From Pseudomonadota bacterium (GTDB taxonomy: Bacteria; Desulfobacterota; SM23-61), in contig JAHJQK010000022.1 of assembly GCA_018819135.1 (NCBI GenBank), positions 1-64,000 of the forward strand: a stretch of DNA of 64,000 bases. The letters run 5' to 3'. The translations under genes were made by a program, and so were the position numbers. The notes under the pieces are model-generated. The model did not search any database. It was not told the origin of the DNA and was given only the letters and a program-made list of their open reading frames with translations. Below, piece after piece: positions 5,189-64,000 of this stretch (the stretch's first letter is position 1; each line of letters begins with the position of its first letter).

Positions 5189-5269
5189 TTCAAAACGATA
5201 AACTGGAAATCAGCTTCCAGGGCTGAGCTTGGGTTTTTGATCTTCCGGGGAAATAGAAGTATAATAAAA

Positions 5270-5370
5270 TTGTATAGGAAATTCTTTTTTGGACACGGAT
5301 ATACACAGATTATCAGGATAAACTAAAAAGAAAATAATTATCTGCGTATATCTGCGTCCTATTAAATTTA
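5270..5370. repeat. Dispersed intergenic repeat, family R1 (GGACACrGAT...ATCTGYGTCC)
   Basis: TTGTATAGGAAATTCTTTTTTGGACACGGATATACACAGATTATCAGGATAAACTAAAAAG...CTGCGTCCTATTAAATTTA; near-identical tracts at 15834, 39741, 60517 and 62805. Confidence 0.85.
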
Positions 5371-9577: not shown

Positions 9578-9693
9578 TGCGGCATAGCCGCAACCAAAAG
9601 AAATCACCCCCTCCCAACCCTCCCCCCTCGAGGGGGAGGGATAGGGTGGGGGGGATTGCTTAATAAAATTTTCAGAAATTGAACGTAAGTAGT
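9578..9693. mobile_element. 116-bp MITE/REP-like element, copy A, flanked by ACAG direct repeats
   Basis: TGCGGCATAGCCGCAACCAAAAGAAATCACCCCC...GAACGTAAGTAGT; ACAG at 9574-9577 and 9694-9697; same-length copy at 62841-62956. Confidence 0.75.
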
Positions 9694-20579: not shown

Positions 20580-22286
20580 GTGTCCAGCAAATTGATTGCC
20601 AAAGCAAAAAAACTTCTTGCCCAAGAGACGAGAACTTGGCCATCCGGGCAGCCGTCGTTTCCCAATGGCTTTGGGGAAAAGTTATCCATTGCTCTGGCCT
20701 ATCCCCACCGGTATTACACGGCCATGTCCAACTTAGGTTTTCAGACCGTTCATCGGCTCTTCAACGAACAGCCCAACACGGTATGCCAGCGGGTTTTTTT
20801 GCCCGATCCAGAAGATGTTGCCGAATATCGCCGGACGGAAACCCCACTCTTTTCTCTGGAGTCTCAACAGCCGGTCCGTAGCTTTGATATCCTGGCCTTT
20901 TCCATCTCTTACGAGAATGATTATCCCCACCTCCTCCAGATGATGGAATTGGCCAGGATTCCTTTGCGCAACCAAGAGCGAACGGGAGCGGATCCGCTGG
21001 TTATGGCGGGAGGAGCGACCGTATTGATGAACCCCGAACCCCTGGCGGACTTTGTGGATTTTTTTGTCATCGGGGAAGCCGAAGTAATTGCGGGTCCGCT
21101 CATACAGGTTTTGCGAGAAGGGAAAGTACAGGGCAAGTCTAAAGAAGAACTGTTGAATGAATTGATGACTATAGAAGGGATCTACGTTCCGCAATTTTAT
21201 TCCGTAACCTACCGGCCGGAGGGAACGATTGAGTCTTGGATCCCCCGGGAAACCGCTCCGCCCCGGGTGAAGAGGGTCTGGCTTAAAAATCTGAATAGCT
21301 CCTTGACGGTTTCCTCGCTGTTAACCCCCAACACGGAGCTTTCCGGCATGTTTCTACTGGAGCTGAGTCGGGGTTGCCATCGGCGTTGTCGTTTTTGCGC
21401 CGGCTGTTACACCTATTTCCCCCACCGCGTGCGGGATGGTCCCCGGCTCCAAGAGATGGCCTTGAGAGCTTCAGGCCCGGGGACCAAAGTCGGCCTGGTT
21501 GGTGCGGCCATCTCGGATTACCCCGACCTCCTTTCTCTCGGACGAGAGGTTCTACATTCCCAGCGACCCCTTTCCTTTTCCTCCCTGCGAGTCGATTCCC
21601 TTACCCCCGAACTGGCCGACCTGATTCGTGATAGCGGGCAGAAGACCATTACCCTGGCCCCAGAAGCCGGCTCGGAAAGGATGCGCAGGATTATCCGCAA
21701 GGGGTTTACAGAACAGGAAATCATTCACGCTGCCGAGGTCTTAACGGATCGGGGAATTCGCAGCTTTCGCCTTTACTTTATGATCGGTCTGCCAGAGGAA
21801 AAAACGGAAGATATCAAAGGGATTGTGGACTTAACCAAGAAGATCCGCCATCATATCCGGGAAAGAAGTCGAGGGAAAAAGGGGGCAGAAAGAATTCTCC
21901 TCAGCCTTAACCCCTTCGTTCCCAAGCCTGGCACTCCTTTCCAATGGCATCCTTTTGAGGATGTTCGCAATTTAAACGAAAAAATCAAGATGGTGCGAAG
22001 AGGACTTCGCCAGGAGAAAGGTGTTTCGGTTGCGGCGGATGTACCCAAATGGTCTTACTTGCAGACCCTTTTATCCCGCGGCGATCGACGAGTGGGGAGA
22101 TTCCTGCTGGCTGCCCACGCTCTGGGGGGAAACTGGCCGCAGGCCTACCGCTCCGTGGATGTGAATCCTGATTTTTATGTTTACCGGGAACGAGCTTGGG
22201 AAGAGAATTTTCCCTGGGACTTTATCGACCATGGGATCAACAAAGAATTGCTCTGGGCGGAATACCAACAAGCTTTCAAAGAGTGA
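20580..22286 (+). CDS. B12-binding-like radical SAM protein (TIGR03960-type)
   Basis: ELSRGCHRRCRFCAGCYTYFPHRVR (CxxxCxxC) radical SAM motif; ALAYPHRYYTAMSNLGFQ N-terminus typical of the family. Confidence 0.85.
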   Translation: MSSKLIAKAKKLLAQETRTWPSGQPSFPNGFGEKLSIALAYPHRYYTAMSNLGFQTVHRLFNEQPNTVCQRVFLPDPEDVAEYRRTETPLFSLESQQPVRSFDILAFSISYENDYPHLLQMMELARIPLRNQERTGADPLVMAGGATVLMNPEPLADFVDFFVIGEAEVIAGPLIQVLREGKVQGKSKEELLNELMTIEGIYVPQFYSVTYRPEGTIESWIPRETAPPRVKRVWLKNLNSSLTVSSLLTPNTELSGMFLLELSRGCHRRCRFCAGCYTYFPHRVRDGPRLQEMALRASGPGTKVGLVGAAISDYPDLLSLGREVLHSQRPLSFSSLRVDSLTPELADLIRDSGQKTITLAPEAGSERMRRIIRKGFTEQEIIHAAEVLTDRGIRSFRLYFMIGLPEEKTEDIKGIVDLTKKIRHHIRERSRGKKGAERILLSLNPFVPKPGTPFQWHPFEDVRNLNEKIKMVRRGLRQEKGVSVAADVPKWSYLQTLLSRGDRRVGRFLLAAHALGGNWPQAYRSVDVNPDFYVYRERAWEENFPWDFIDHGINKELLWAEYQQAFKE

Positions 22287-45891: not shown

Positions 45892-45981
45892 CCATTAATA
45901 ATTAATATGAATAATGAAGACCCCAAAAGGGCCTAGTTCATGGCGCCGCTTATGAGAATGCGCTCCGCAACTCTCTAAGGT

Positions 45982-46613
45982 TCAGTCCTTGAAAGAGAGG
46001 GCATCGACGACAATTGAAGCAGCGGCCTGAAAGCTGAGATGCTCCGTATTGATAACAAGGTCATAGCATTCCGGATCTTCCCACTCAGCCTTAAAATACC
46101 TCTTGATAAACTTGCGACTGCTGTTGTCAAAGTGTGCTATCTCCCGCTTAGCAGTTTCTTGGTCGAGCTTGAGGTTCTGCATGACGCGCTTCTCTCTCAC
46201 CTCTAAGGGTGCTACCACTAAAACGTGAAGGGCCCGGGGATGATCTTTTAGGATGAACTGGCTACCTCGTCCTTGGATCACAAGCGACTGGCTTCGAGCC
46301 AGGTCCCTAACAACAGACTCCAGTGCTTGCAAATAACGAGTATCGTTTAGAGGCATTTGCCAGGTAGGTAGATAGCGCCCTCAAAGCCCACGTCAAGGCT
46401 AGAGCTATGTTCCAAAGCTTCGGCGATGCGACCCAGAAGACTACTAGGCGGCATCTCTTTCGCTATCACCTCTTGCTCTTGCCGGTGAAGTCGGGCAGCT
46501 ACTTCAGCGATAATCTCTCGGTCAACGTAGTCAGCGTGAAGTCTATCGGCGATTTGTCTCCCTATTTCCGGTGCCCCGCTTCCCAACTGACCCCGAATGG
46601 TTACTAAAGACAT
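45982..46613 (-). pseudogene. Cytidylate kinase-like protein, copy 1, frameshifted
   Basis: Two ORFs (46347-46613 and 45982-46356) that together equal intact copy 52233-52865; single G missing (GATAGCGCC versus GATAGGCGCC) near 46375. Confidence 0.88.
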
Positions 46614-46852
46614 TCATTACCTCCTTATCGAGCGTTTGTATTCACCTATTTGGGTAGCGAAACGAGCCTTCTGCACACTTTCCTGCGCCTATCAGATATC
46701 ATAGCAGTGCATTTAGACGATGGCAATGGATTAAAATCTTAGACAAAAGTGGGTTAAAAAAGGTGTTAATCGGTTTTACAAATTACCTCGTGATAAGGTA
46801 TGCTAAAAAGAAAATTTTTTTGCGAGATTACTAAGTAATTGGGGGTTAAGGA

Positions 46853-48277
46853 ATGGTAAGCGCTTTATCAAAAAGCAATAGCCGGGGTCTTAGAATTTTT
46901 TTCGAACCCAAAAGTGTGGCTATCGTGGGGGCCTCTCGGACGCCAGGCAAGATTGGTAATTACATCTTGCGGAATAATCTCAAGCTGGGCTATAGCGGCC
47001 AGATTTTTCCGGTAAATCCCGGTGCCACTGAGATCGAGGGGCTGAGAAGTTATCCTTCGGTAGCCGCTATACCGGAGGCCGTGGAACTGGCGGTGATAGC
47101 TGTTCCTGCCCACTTGGTCTTGGATATCATGCGGGACTGTCAGCGGAAGGCGGTGCGGGGGGTGGTGGTCATCTCATCGGGATTCTCAGAGGCTGGGAAG
47201 GAAGGAATGGAACGACAGACTGAATTGGTGCGGATGGCGGCTGAAGCCGGCATCAGGGTTCTCGGCCCCAATACTACCGGCATCCTCAATCCCGAAGGCC
47301 GATTCACTACAACCTTCGTTGATTTAAAAGGGGTGAAGCCGGGGGGCATAGGTTTTGTGGCTCAGACGGGCATGTTCGCCGGGATGATGTTTCAATGGAT
47401 CTTTTCTTCGCAGTACTTCGGCCTGAGCAAAGTGATTGGCTTGGGCAACAAGGCTGATGTAACCGATCACGATGCCCTTGACTATCTGGCTCAAGACGAG
47501 GCTACCCGGGTGGTCATCATGTACCTTGAGGGAGTAAAGGATGGAAGATGTCTTTTAGGCTCGGCCGTGAGGTTGGTGCGAAGAAAGCCCTTGGTGTTGA
47601 TCAAAGGGGGTAAGACCGAAGAAGGGGCTAAGGCGGCCCAATCCCACACCGGCTCGCTATCGGGCCGAGATGAAATTTTCGAAGCATTGGTCAGGCAGGC
47701 GGGGGCCATCCGAGTAAGCGATTTTGAGGAGCTTCTTGACTTTGGTAAGACCTTTGCCTATCAGCGCTTACCCCGGAGCAACCGCATAGCCATTATAACC
47801 CTCTCGGGAGGCGCTGGGGTTATGGCCGCCGATGCTTGCCTTGAGAGCGGGTTAGTGCTCGCCCGTCTTGAGCCACATACCCTGGCAAGGGTTAAGGAAA
47901 AGATGCCATCTTGGGCCAGCCCAGGGAACCCGCTTGACATAGAGCCTCTCTCCGAGATCGTCACTCAAGAGGGGGCCTATAGACTGGGCTTAGATGTCGT
48001 TCTATCAGACCCCGGAGTAGACCTGGCTCTCGTGGTTATGAGTACCTTGCGCATGGCCCGAGTCCATGCCGATTATTTGCTTGATGTGGCCAAGGCCCAT
48101 CCTGAAAAGCCGGTGGCTGTGTGCATCATAGGTGAGGCCGTCATCTACAGCCAACTCTTCCAGATTATGGAGCAAGCAAGCATCCCGGTTTTCGTAAGCG
48201 TTCGCAGGGCTGTGGCCAGCTTGGCCGCTCTCTATCGGTATCGTCGCTTCCTGGATAGCCTTGTCAAGAGGGCATGA
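46853..48277 (+). CDS. Acyl-CoA synthetase (NDP-forming)/CoA-binding protein, acetate-CoA ligase alpha-like
   Basis: [26 protein letters not shown] CoA-binding domain; [17 protein letters not shown] (catalytic His region). Confidence 0.88.
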   Translation: MVSALSKSNSRGLRIFFEPKSVAIVGASRTPGKIGNYILRNNLKLGYSGQIFPVNPGATEIEGLRSYPSVAAIPEAVELAVIAVPAHLVLDIMRDCQRKAVRGVVVISSGFSEAGKEGMERQTELVRMAAEAGIRVLGPNTTGILNPEGRFTTTFVDLKGVKPGGIGFVAQTGMFAGMMFQWIFSSQYFGLSKVIGLGNKADVTDHDALDYLAQDEATRVVIMYLEGVKDGRCLLGSAVRLVRRKPLVLIKGGKTEEGAKAAQSHTGSLSGRDEIFEALVRQAGAIRVSDFEELLDFGKTFAYQRLPRSNRIAIITLSGGAGVMAADACLESGLVLARLEPHTLARVKEKMPSWASPGNPLDIEPLSEIVTQEGAYRLGLDVVLSDPGVDLALVVMSTLRMARVHADYLLDVAKAHPEKPVAVCIIGEAVIYSQLFQIMEQASIPVFVSVRRAVASLAALYRYRRFLDSLVKRA

Positions 48278-48313
48278 GAGCATCTCTACGGGAGGGAGGA
48301 ATATAATTTTTCC

Positions 48314-48539
48314 GTCCGGGCAGCCGTCGTTTCCCAATGGCTTTGGGGAAAAGTTATCCATTGCTCTGGCCTATCCCCACCGGTATTACACGGCCATGTC
48401 CAACTTAGGTTTTCAGATCGTTTACCGGGAACGAGCTTGGGAAGAGAATTTTCCCTGGGACTTTGTCGACCATGGGATCAACAAAGAATTGCTCTGGGCG
48501 GAATACCAACGAGCCTTAAAAGAAGGAAGTTCCTTTTAA
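48314..48539 (+). pseudogene. Internally deleted mini-copy of the radical SAM gene at 20580-22286
   Basis: First about 100 bp match 20645-20750, then joined in frame to sequence matching 22179-22284 (GFQIVYRERAWEENFPWDFVDHGINKELLWAEYQ). Confidence 0.88.
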
Positions 48540-52128: not shown

Positions 52129-52232
52129 AACCGTGAAAAACAAATATCCGGCCGGGAATTAACTGGGCAAGTCAGGATTTAACCCTGCAGGGAGGGTCAG
52201 GTTTGGAGTTGATGACTTCGTCCGCCTAAGGT

Positions 52233-52865
52233 TCAGTCCTTGAAAGAGAGGGCATCGACGACGATGGAAGCAGCGGCCTGAAAGCTGAGATGCTCCGTAT
52301 TGATAACGAGGTCATAGCATCCCGGATCTTCCAGCTCAGCCTTAAAATACCTCTTGATAAACTTGCGACTGCTGCTGTCAAAGCGTGCTATCTCCCGCTT
52401 AGCAGTTTCTTGGTCGAGCTTGAGGTTCTGCATGACGCGCTTCTCGCGCACCTCGAGCGGTGCCACCACGAGAACGTGAAGGGTCCGGGGATAATCTTTT
52501 AGGATGAACTGGCTGCCTCGTCCTCGGATCACAAGCGACTGGCTTCGAGCCAGGTCCCTAACAACAGACTCCAGTGTTTGTAAATAGCGAGAATCGTTCA
52601 GCGGTATTTGCCAGGCAGGTAGATAGGCGCCCTCAAAGCCCACTTCCAGGCTAGAGCTATGTTCCAAAGCTTCAGCGATCCGACCCAGGAGACTACTCGG
52701 CGGCATCTCTTTCGCGAGTACCTCTTGCTCTTGCCGCTGAAGTCGGGCAGCCACTTCAGCGATAATCTCTCGATCAACGTAGTCAGTGTGAAGTCGATCG
52801 GCGATTTGTCTCCCTATTTCCGGTGCCCCGCTTCCCAACTGACCCCGAATTGTTACTATGGACAT
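52233..52865 (-). CDS. Cytidylate kinase-like family protein (copy 2, intact)
   Basis: MSIVTIRGQLGSGAPEIGRQIADRLHTDYVDREIIAEVAARL; P-loop-like N-terminus; 210 aa. Confidence 0.85.
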   Translation of the reverse strand: MSIVTIRGQLGSGAPEIGRQIADRLHTDYVDREIIAEVAARLQRQEQEVLAKEMPPSSLLGRIAEALEHSSSLEVGFEGAYLPAWQIPLNDSRYLQTLESVVRDLARSQSLVIRGRGSQFILKDYPRTLHVLVVAPLEVREKRVMQNLKLDQETAKREIARFDSSSRKFIKRYFKAELEDPGCYDLVINTEHLSFQAAASIVVDALSFKD

Positions 52866-53134
52866 TCCTTACCTCCTTATCGAGTGTTTGCATCCATCTG
52901 TTTGGGTAGCGAAACGAGCCTTCTGCCGACTTTCATGTGTTGGTAGGATATCATAGCAGACCATTTGGGCGATGGCAATTTAATATCTTGGCTTGCCTTC
53001 CTTCCCTTTTATACTTCTTTCGAGCCCGGGGAGGCAGGAAGATGCTTCCGCTAATCTTTTTGAATTTACAGCTGAATATGGAAAGTGATGGTAAGCAAAA
53101 ATGATGATCTCGAAAAAAGTCAGAAAAGCCGTCA

Positions 53135-53205
53135 CTCCTGCGCAAGCAGGAGTCCATAACTACTTGAATTAACTGGATTCCCGCTTTCGCGGGAATGGCG
53201 AAAAT
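53135..53205. repeat. Paired dispersed palindromes (TCCTGCGCAAGCAGGA; ATTCCCGCTTTCGCGGGAAT)
   Basis: ACTCCTGCGCAAGCAGGAGTCC ... TGGATTCCCGCTTTCGCGGGAATGGCG inside sequence absent from the copy-1 intergenic region. Confidence 0.8.
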
Positions 53206-53357
53206 GGAACAAAAAGGACTTTTTACGAATCCATCAAAAATGCCTTAGAAAAAAGTGGGTTAAAAAAGGTGTTAATCGGTTTTACAAATTACCTCTTGAT
53301 AAGGTATGCTAAAATAAAAATTTTTTGCGAGATTACTAAGTAATTGGGGGTTAAGGA

Positions 53358-53700
53358 ATGGTAAGCGCTTTATCAAAAAGCAATCACCAGGAGCTCAGAA
53401 TTTTTTTCGAACCCAAGAGTGTGGCTATCGTGGGGGCCTCGCGGACGCCGGGCAAGATTGGTAATTACATCTTGCGGAATAATCTTAAGCTGGGCTATAG
53501 CGGTCCGATCCCACACCGGCTCGCTATCGGGCCGAGATGAAATTTTCGAAGCATTGGTCAGGCAGGCGGGGGCTATCCGAGTAAGCGATTTTGAGGAGCT
53601 TCTCGACTTTGGTAAAACTTTTGCCTATCAGCGCTTACCCCGGAGCAACCGCATAGCCATCATAACCCTCTCGGGAGGCGCTGGGAATGACAAAACATAG
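53358..53700 (+). pseudogene. Internally deleted and 3'-truncated copy of acyl-CoA synthetase 46853-48277
   Basis: First about 150 bp match 46853-47000, then jump to sequence matching 47641-47815 in another frame; ends GGCGCTGGGAATGACAAAACATAG. Confidence 0.9.
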
Positions 53701-62314: not shown

Positions 62315-62704
62315 ATGGCTACGCAGGCGAAAATACTCTTGGTTGACGATGACCCTGATTTTGTGGAAGCAACCAAAGCCATCCTGGAAACGAAACCTTT
62401 TGAAGTGATCGTGGCTTATGACGGGAAGGAGGGACTGGAGAAAGCCCGCGGCGAAAAACCCGATGTAATCATCTTAGACGTAATGATGCCCCCGCCGGAT
62501 GGTTATGCGGTGTGCACGGAATTAAAAAAAGATCCGAAATGCAAAGCCATTCCCATTCTTCTCCTGACGGCCGTGATGCAGGCTCTACCGCACACGCTTT
62601 ATACCATCGACATGGGATTGCGCACCGAAGCCGACGATTACATCGATAAACCCGTTGAGCCGGCCGAATTAGTGCGCAGAGTGGAAAGCCTGATTGCCAG
62701 CTGA
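62315..62704 (+). CDS. Response regulator receiver protein
   Basis: AKILLVDDDPDFVEATKAIL, DVIILDVMMPPPDGYAV, DKPVEPAELV. Confidence 0.9.
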   Translation: MATQAKILLVDDDPDFVEATKAILETKPFEVIVAYDGKEGLEKARGEKPDVIILDVMMPPPDGYAVCTELKKDPKCKAIPILLLTAVMQALPHTLYTIDMGLRTEADDYIDKPVEPAELVRRVESLIAS

Positions 62705-62804
62705 GGCGTCATTATTTTATCTGCACCGAATTTTATCTGCACCGAAGAGAATGAGGGAAACGCTAAGCGCTTAGCGCTATGCGTATGGTGTTTTAAATTT
62801 ATTG

Positions 62805-63032
62805 CATAGGAATTTCCTTTTTGGACACGGATGTACACAGCGCGGCAGTGCCGCAACCAAAAGAAATCACCCCCTCCCACCCCTCCCCCCTCGAGGGGGA
62901 GGGATAGGGTGGGGGGGATTGCTTAACAAAATTTTCAGAATTTGAACGTTAGTAGTACAGATTATCAGGATAAACTAAAAAGAAAATAATTATCCGTTGT
63001 TATCTGCGCCAATCTGCGTCCTATTAAATTTA
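62805..63032. repeat. R1 dispersed repeat interrupted by the 116-bp element
   Basis: TTGCATAGGAATTTCCTTTTTGGACACGGATGTACACAG | insert | ATTATCAGGATAAACTAAAAAGAAAATAATTATC...CTGCGTCCTATTAAATTTA. Confidence 0.85.
62841..62956. mobile_element. 116-bp MITE/REP-like element, copy B, flanked by ACAG direct repeats
   Basis: CGCGGCAGTGCCGCAACCAAAAGAAATCACCCCC...GAACGTTAGTAGT; ACAG at 62837-62840 and 62957-62960. Confidence 0.8.
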
Positions 63033-63033
63033 T

Positions 63034-64000
63034 ATGACCAGCATCTTAGTAGTGGATGACGAAAAGATCATTCGGGATGGGTGCACCAGAATCCTCGGCA
63101 AAGAAGGCTGGGCCGTACAGACGGCTGGCTCCGGGGAGGACGGGTTACGCCTGTTGCAGCAAGAACCCTTCGATCTTCTCCTGCTGGATTTAAAGATGCC
63201 CGGGCTGAGCGGGATGGAAGTTCTGCAACGGGTAAAGGATTTACGCCCAGAACTTCTGGTAGTCATCATTACCGGGTATGCCACCGTGGAATCTGCTGTG
63301 GAAGCGATGAAAGCCGGCGCCTATGATTTTATCTCCAAACCCTTCCTCCCCGACCAGTTGCGCATCGTCGTCCGCCGCGCCCTGGAGAAAAAAGCCCTGC
63401 AACGGGAAGCAGACCATCTGCGCCAGGAGCGGGAGAAGGGGCTGCGAGAAATCGCTGGCGAAAAGAGCAAGATCAAAACCATCATCCATTGTATGGCCGA
63501 CGGGGTGTTGGTCACGGACCATGAAGGCCATGTGGTTCTGCACAATCCCGCCCTGGTAAAGATGCTCAAAATGGAGACGTCCCCCCCTTTGGGACATTTA
63601 CTTGATGCCGCCATCAGGAATGATTGCCTGGGGGAATTCGTCAAAAGGATCAGGGAGACCAAAGAAGGGAAGACAATCTCGCAAGAAGTGGTCGTGGGGG
63701 GGTTAACCCTCATGGCCCATATTGCTCCGGTACGCGGCGAGGAAGGTGAGATCCTGGGAGCGGTGACGGTTCTCAGAGATGTTAGTATGCTGAAAGCCAT
63801 GGACCAGATGAAGTCGGATTTTGTGGCCATGGTCTCCCATGAACTGCGTGCTCCGCTTGCTTCAGTGGAACAACAACTTTCCGTGGTCTTGGCCGGGATC
63901 CTGGGAGAGGTCAATTCCCGGCAGAATGAAATGCTGGGAAGAGCTAAGCAAAGGACGCACGCTTTGCTAGCCTTGATCAATGACCTTCTGGACATGTCGA
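63034..64000 (+). CDS. Receiver-PAS-histidine kinase (3' end outside window)
   Basis: ILVVDDEKIIRDGCTRIL receiver, PAS, MKSDFVAMVSHELRAPLASVEQQL H-box; open to the last base. Confidence 0.9.
   Translation, partial: MTSILVVDDEKIIRDGCTRILGKEGWAVQTAGSGEDGLRLLQQEPFDLLLLDLKMPGLSGMEVLQRVKDLRPELLVVIITGYATVESAVEAMKAGAYDFISKPFLPDQLRIVVRRALEKKALQREADHLRQEREKGLREIAGEKSKIKTIIHCMADGVLVTDHEGHVVLHNPALVKMLKMETSPPLGHLLDAAIRNDCLGEFVKRIRETKEGKTISQEVVVGGLTLMAHIAPVRGEEGEILGAVTVLRDVSMLKAMDQMKSDFVAMVSHELRAPLASVEQQLSVVLAGILGEVNSRQNEMLGRAKQRTHALLALINDLLDMS

Follow-up and report, generated by a model that had tools for sequence, protein, structure and literature searches.

IS91/ISCR elements and Helitrons, both moved by Y2 HUH enzymes, have asymmetric ends with a hairpin near one terminus, use a short fixed target, capture passengers, and make no target duplication. 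Three tetranucleotides mark the ends of IS200/IS605 elements: a guide located 5′ of a hairpin foot, a target that adjoins the left end, and one that terminates the right end (PMC6006769). The palindrome-associated transposable elements (PATEs) of Haloquadratum walsbyi are related to IS605 and lack inverted repeats and target duplications (PMC3119063). Here, we describe a 116-bp element, termed E, in a window of 64,000 nucleotides (the whole stretch of DNA analyzed) from a bacterial genome of 4.43 Mb (222 contigs; contamination estimate, 8.5%). E is mobile and non-autonomous, and it entered a dispersed repeat, R1, at a CACAG site (Table 1). A first-pass annotation of the window had proposed a nested mobile insertion that generates a 4-bp target duplication; the nested insertion stands, with its boundaries exact to the base, whereas the duplication is unsupported.

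Table 1. Features of the interrupted R1 repeat, of element E, and of the reference copies in the window
Feature	Position	Strand	Basis
Left part of interrupted R1	62801..62840	+	Direct repeat D12 with 5269-5308, 90% identity
ACAG at left end (C-ACAG, preferred insertion site)	62837..62840	+	Left-flank CAG in 22/29 filtered pairs, nearly all of these CACAG
Element E, 116 bp between both ACAGs; net insertion 120 bp	62841..62956	+	About 19 near-full copies; orthologous empty sites
Left-end hairpin GCGGC-AGT-GCCGC, then conserved AACC (minus strand: GGTT directly 5′ of hairpin)	62842..62854	+	Fold; left-end match counts
Passenger: G+C-rich 64-bp palindrome, also found outside E	62861..62924		Inverted repeat I3; stand-alone copies L042, L043, L044
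Conserved right end, last 35 bases, ending TTTGAACGTTAGTAGT	62922..62956	+	52 matches versus 1 in control
Second ACAG	62957..62960	+	Flank comparison in source genome and G148
Right part of interrupted R1	62961..63032	+	Direct repeat D3; stops just before kinase start codon at 63034
Uninterrupted R1 copy, reference	5269..5370	+	Repeat comparison and R1 core matches
Second E copy of the window	9578..9693	+	Sits at CACAG of R2 repeat (CCACAGAGGGCACAG)

Joining the flanks of E with a single ACAG kept yields GGACACGGATGTACACAGATTATCAGGATAAA, which matches the R1 core with 0/32 mismatches. Aligned over the 34-mer quoted in the first-pass annotation, the two R1 copies of the window differ at one base (GGATATAC in the uninterrupted copy, GGATGTAC in the E-bearing copy). 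This match is not due to chance. R1 is a tight dispersed family: at ≤3 mismatches its core was found 54 times in the genome, 35 times perfectly, and never with the reversed-pattern control. The copies examined lie in differing contexts. Interrupted copies number only about five, i.e., the one described here, those on contigs C25 (L012) and C165 (L126), and two on C36 (L009) and C8 (position 40584; L025) in which only half of R1 is retained. Nesting thus recurs in at least two further E-bearing copies at the same base of R1: joining the flanks on C25 leaves one mismatch, and the element on C165 has a different interior. Since R1 is uninterrupted at 54 other places, the suggestion that it might normally contain the segment is false, and R1 without E is the normal state in this genome.

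Orthologous sites in related genomes support mobility. On contig C63 (L019), the source genome reads CACCACAGAGATC-ACAG-[E]-GCAG-AGAACGCAGAG where relative G001 (L367) reads CACCACAGAGATC-CCAG-AGAACGCAGAG, and the orthologous sites in G002 (L364) and G003 (L363) are also free of E. A copy on contig C178 (L021) is likewise missing from G001 (L352) and G004 (L355), with the host repeat in place. The empty site carries a single tetramer; the filled site carries a pair and is 120 bp longer. With at least two relatives E-free at a site, gain in the source genome is the simpler history; these precise empty sites and the polarity given by the outgroups lend good support to the claim that the element is or was mobile. 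At the locus described here, G003 (L369) lacks E in an R1-like repeat whose middle segment differs, and the intergenic region is replaced in G002.

The source genome holds about 19 near-full copies of E; others share only the ends, with different interiors. The left end has 55 matches (4 for the reversed-pattern control), and the right end, searched as TTGNACGTTAGTAGTACAG, has 52 (control, 1); the ends thus occur more widely than the complete element. The right end is also present in three genomes of the same genus and in two of the four same-family genomes examined. The sequences of these ends are unrelated to each other, and E, unlike a classical MITE, has no terminal inverted repeats. Lengths of E-type elements range from about 85 to >200 bp, and the interior may be nearly absent or may consist of the G+C-rich palindrome, of a CCACAGAG...ACACAGAT repeat, or of a GTAGGGGC palindrome. 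Interiors are other dispersed palindromes, interchangeable between fixed ends. Because the palindrome of the present copy also occurs alone, nesting at this locus has three levels, with the palindrome inside E and E inside R1. The E copies examined in the source genome reside mainly in R2 (CCACAGAGNNCACAG); a GGACACAGATAA-like repeat holds one, and others are found in R1 or in other sequence.

Back-to-back E elements, or left ends about 45 to 50 bp apart, were seen at L028 (300-490), in G002 (C6:3158-3224), and in G006 (C783:6610-6682); at L028, an end-to-end pair of E has a single ACAG common to both. At L148 (G006), the C-rich passenger palindrome of E is itself split by a palindromic repeat (CCGTCACCCCGGTGAAAACCGGGG...), adding a level of nesting. 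A further dispersed palindromic repeat (CTTAGCGCTTAGCGCTATGCGCATGGCGTTT-like) lies near E and R1 copies, at 62765-62795 and at L028, L035, and L009. Many E copies lie at contig ends, and most of the genomes are draft assemblies or metagenome bins.

Whether insertion duplicates the target was assessed from the flanks. In the source genome, CAG stands on both sides of E in 22 of 29 filtered pairs, with CACAG at the left in nearly all of these; four pairs deviate at the left only, three at both sides, and none at the right only. As the target there is almost always ACAG, a copied ACAG and an element-borne one look identical. The ends of E recur in G148, a metagenome-assembled genome of 6.4 Mb labeled as another phylum (Verrucomicrobia, according to its record title), with 126 left-end matches at ≤1 mismatch against 18 for the reversed-pattern control. 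Many of these matches fall at contig ends; the family probably disrupts assembly and so has more copies than were counted. Flanks were sampled in G148 with patterns that exclude the flank itself. Exact left ends are preceded by C[A/C]CAG in mostly unique contexts: among 57 left flanks, the outer C is found in 52, followed by A (30), C (21), or G (6), and CAG in 46. Right tails beside the conserved end are more varied (n = 16; ACAG in 6, ATAG in 3, ATAA in 2, and others in 5). Seven copies combine CCAG at the left with a readable right end, which reads ACAG (twice), ACAT, ATAA, ATGG, GATG, or TACA. A faithful 4-bp duplication would give CCAG at the right, and none of the seven has it. A 3-bp duplication of CAG would accommodate some of the seven but fits poorly with the variable right tails of G148, though the source genome is compatible with it. 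On these sequence comparisons, the two CAGs are probably not copies of each other, one deriving from the target and the other from the end of E. We considered the assignment of the left CAG to the element and of the right flank to the target, which is favored by G148 but not by the source genome, since the direction of deviation is opposite (left more than right in the source genome, right more in G148). No matched non-CAG pair occurs among the sampled copies, which are few and partly old.

Taken as a whole, these features are best explained, with a probability of roughly 0.5, by a non-autonomous element that relies on a single-strand HUH transposase supplied in trans. E lacks terminal inverted repeats, targets CAG-type sites, and has an invariant AACC beside its hairpin; together these features point to HUH transposition, and it is from mobility without duplication that we infer this step. 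The minus strand of the E terminus reads GGTT-hairpin-G-CTG, which fits the end plan of IS200/IS605, and the left hairpin is predicted to fold strongly. E entered R1 at CACAG, adding 120 bp and leaving CAG on each side, with one CAG probably supplied by the target and the other, as the G148 flanks suggest, by the end of E. The putative enzyme, either a Y1 (IS200/IS605-type) or a Y2 rolling-circle (IS91-type) transposase, would recognize the G+C hairpin with its conserved minus-strand GGTT foot and cut after CTG. If E forms a circle, its junction would read GTAGTACAG-CGCGGC. RNAalifold returned no conserved hairpin at the other end (0.0 kcal/mol). A right-end stem of TAAC/GTTA plus AAATT/AATTT, in which 82 to 88% of cells are paired (above slid controls) with little two-sided change, is only suggestive. 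No E ends were found in the flanks of the Y1 loci examined in eight genomes (the source, five relatives, and two others), and none of the RAYT-like genes examined has a GGTT or (M)CAG foot nearby. A 3.5-kb interval on contig C203 bounded by left and right ends was rejected as an autonomous copy, as it holds ordinary regulator and radical-SAM-like genes.

The model of the first-pass annotation, recast as a DDE-type MITE that strictly chooses CAG or ACAG and truly duplicates 3 or 4 bp of its target on insertion, accounts for the CAGs on both sides in the source genome and for the single tetramer at the empty site. It is nonetheless unlikely given the unrelated ends of E, the CCAG-left copies of G148 that do not have CCAG at the right, the right tails that vary there beside an otherwise conserved end, and the absence of a matching non-CAG pair among the flanks examined. 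Site-specific integration of circles at CAG by a tyrosine or serine recombinase, integron- or IS607-like, would also place one core from the target and another from the circle around each insertion; the core-like CAGs flanking E, the shared ACAG of the end-to-end pair at L028, and a folded left end reminiscent of single-strand recombination sites all agree with it. The integron core consensus is GTTRRRY. By eye, the right end of E mismatches this core, array organization is limited to a few pairs, and no recombinase is linked to E, so that we hold this route to be distinctly improbable.

The nested copies need not each be an insertion if E spread together with R1 or R2 as a composite, the nested unit being duplicated whole or transferred by gene conversion. 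Three R1-nested copies with a C-rich interior do fall in one part of the E tree; against this, E is also found with differing interiors in R2, in R3, and in unique sequence, and orthologous sites are empty one by one, leaving composite spread at slightly longer odds than circle integration. The uninterrupted R1 copies might instead have arisen from an E-containing ancestor by precise deletion. No evidence in favor of this reading was found; it is refuted by the counts (54 intact versus about 5 interrupted R1 copies) and contradicted by E copies in unrelated target repeats, and we regard it as having next to no chance of being right. Trans-mobilization by an HUH enzyme remains our preferred reading.

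A response-regulator gene (62315-62704) precedes E and R1, and a response-regulator/PAS/histidine-kinase gene that starts at 63034 follows them, which puts the insertion in the leader of the latter. R1 ends a few bases before the histidine-kinase start codon, with no clear ribosome-binding site between them (62961-63034). A hairpin-rich 124-nt segment folds far below its shuffles on the two strands (z = −6.0 and −5.0), and, on these fold predictions, E might influence expression of the kinase gene. Elsewhere in the window, the segment at 48305-48523 joins two pieces (124 and 104 bp, 94 to 96% identical) of the gene at 20580-22286 without its middle; it was rejected as a nested insertion and is a partial copy of that gene that has lost an internal part. 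Another partial gene duplicate (45975-47818 versus 52226-53685; 91 to 95% identical) is missing some 600 bp that the first copy has and shows further local changes. Two decayed gene duplicates in one window are unusual.

This locus provides a clean present/absent record, with exact boundaries, of a repeat-in-repeat insertion in uncultured bacteria. It also illustrates that, when targets differ by a single base (CCAG versus ACAG), a true target duplication can be told apart from a copy borne by the element, which is easily overlooked in a reading of one genome alone. More tentatively, E may represent an undescribed family of non-autonomous elements without terminal inverted repeats, defined by two ends (CGCGGCNNNGCCGCAACC and TTGAACGTTAGTAGT), spread over distant bacterial groups, using other dispersed palindromes as landing sites and passengers, and moved by a putative single-strand transposase. 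Should this hold across phyla, the conserved ends would be a handle for finding the unknown transposase. A plasmid collection returned one short palindrome match and a phage collection none; three viral contigs match the left end, with a right-end-like tail only in L242, within a short stretch. Rfam gave sub-threshold matches only, mostly miRNA-like noise on the palindrome, and a literature search for the repeat sequences found no relevant paper.

Compared with known systems, E shares with classical MITEs a short, non-coding, multicopy, and mobile nature but differs from them in its unlike ends and, judging by G148, probably in making no target duplication. REP/BIME/REPIN sequences, which have RAYT transposases, are palindromic repeats present in many copies; they bear a tetranucleotide foot, and some are located inside other palindromes (PMC2817692, PMC3733652). 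The foot of E is nevertheless GGTT or (M)CAG rather than a GTAG or CGTC tag, E has two unlike ends and passengers, and the RAYT-like genes examined are not flanked by it. IS91/ISCR elements and Helitrons are matched in asymmetric ends, a hairpin near one terminus, a short fixed target, and passengers, yet E is far shorter. Like the Y1 HUH family IS200/IS605, which makes no target duplication (PMC6006769), E inserts next to a fixed short target, probably also without duplicating it; on the minus strand, it has GGTT at the foot of its hairpin and an unvarying CTG as its terminus. In contrast to that family, it has no internal transposase or linked gene, its hairpin is established at one end, and this left hairpin lies 1 nt from CAG, whereas typical IS200/IS605 left ends (plus strand) carry theirs subterminally.

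The PATEs of H. walsbyi come closest. They and E are short, non-coding elements without terminal inverted repeats and with an end palindrome, and their members are heterogeneous and frequently nested with other small repeats (PMC3119063). PATEs make no target duplication (PMC3119063); G148 argues likewise for E, and the ACAGs of the source genome fit either case. E differs in being bacterial, with ends that recur in a genome labeled as another phylum, in having its palindrome shown at one end, 1 nt from CAG, and in that no related IS605 transposon was found, the Y1 loci examined being free of its ends. Because no parent transposon was found and a second palindrome is not established, we do not file E as a PATE. 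By analogy, the best fit among these systems is that E would work as PATEs do.
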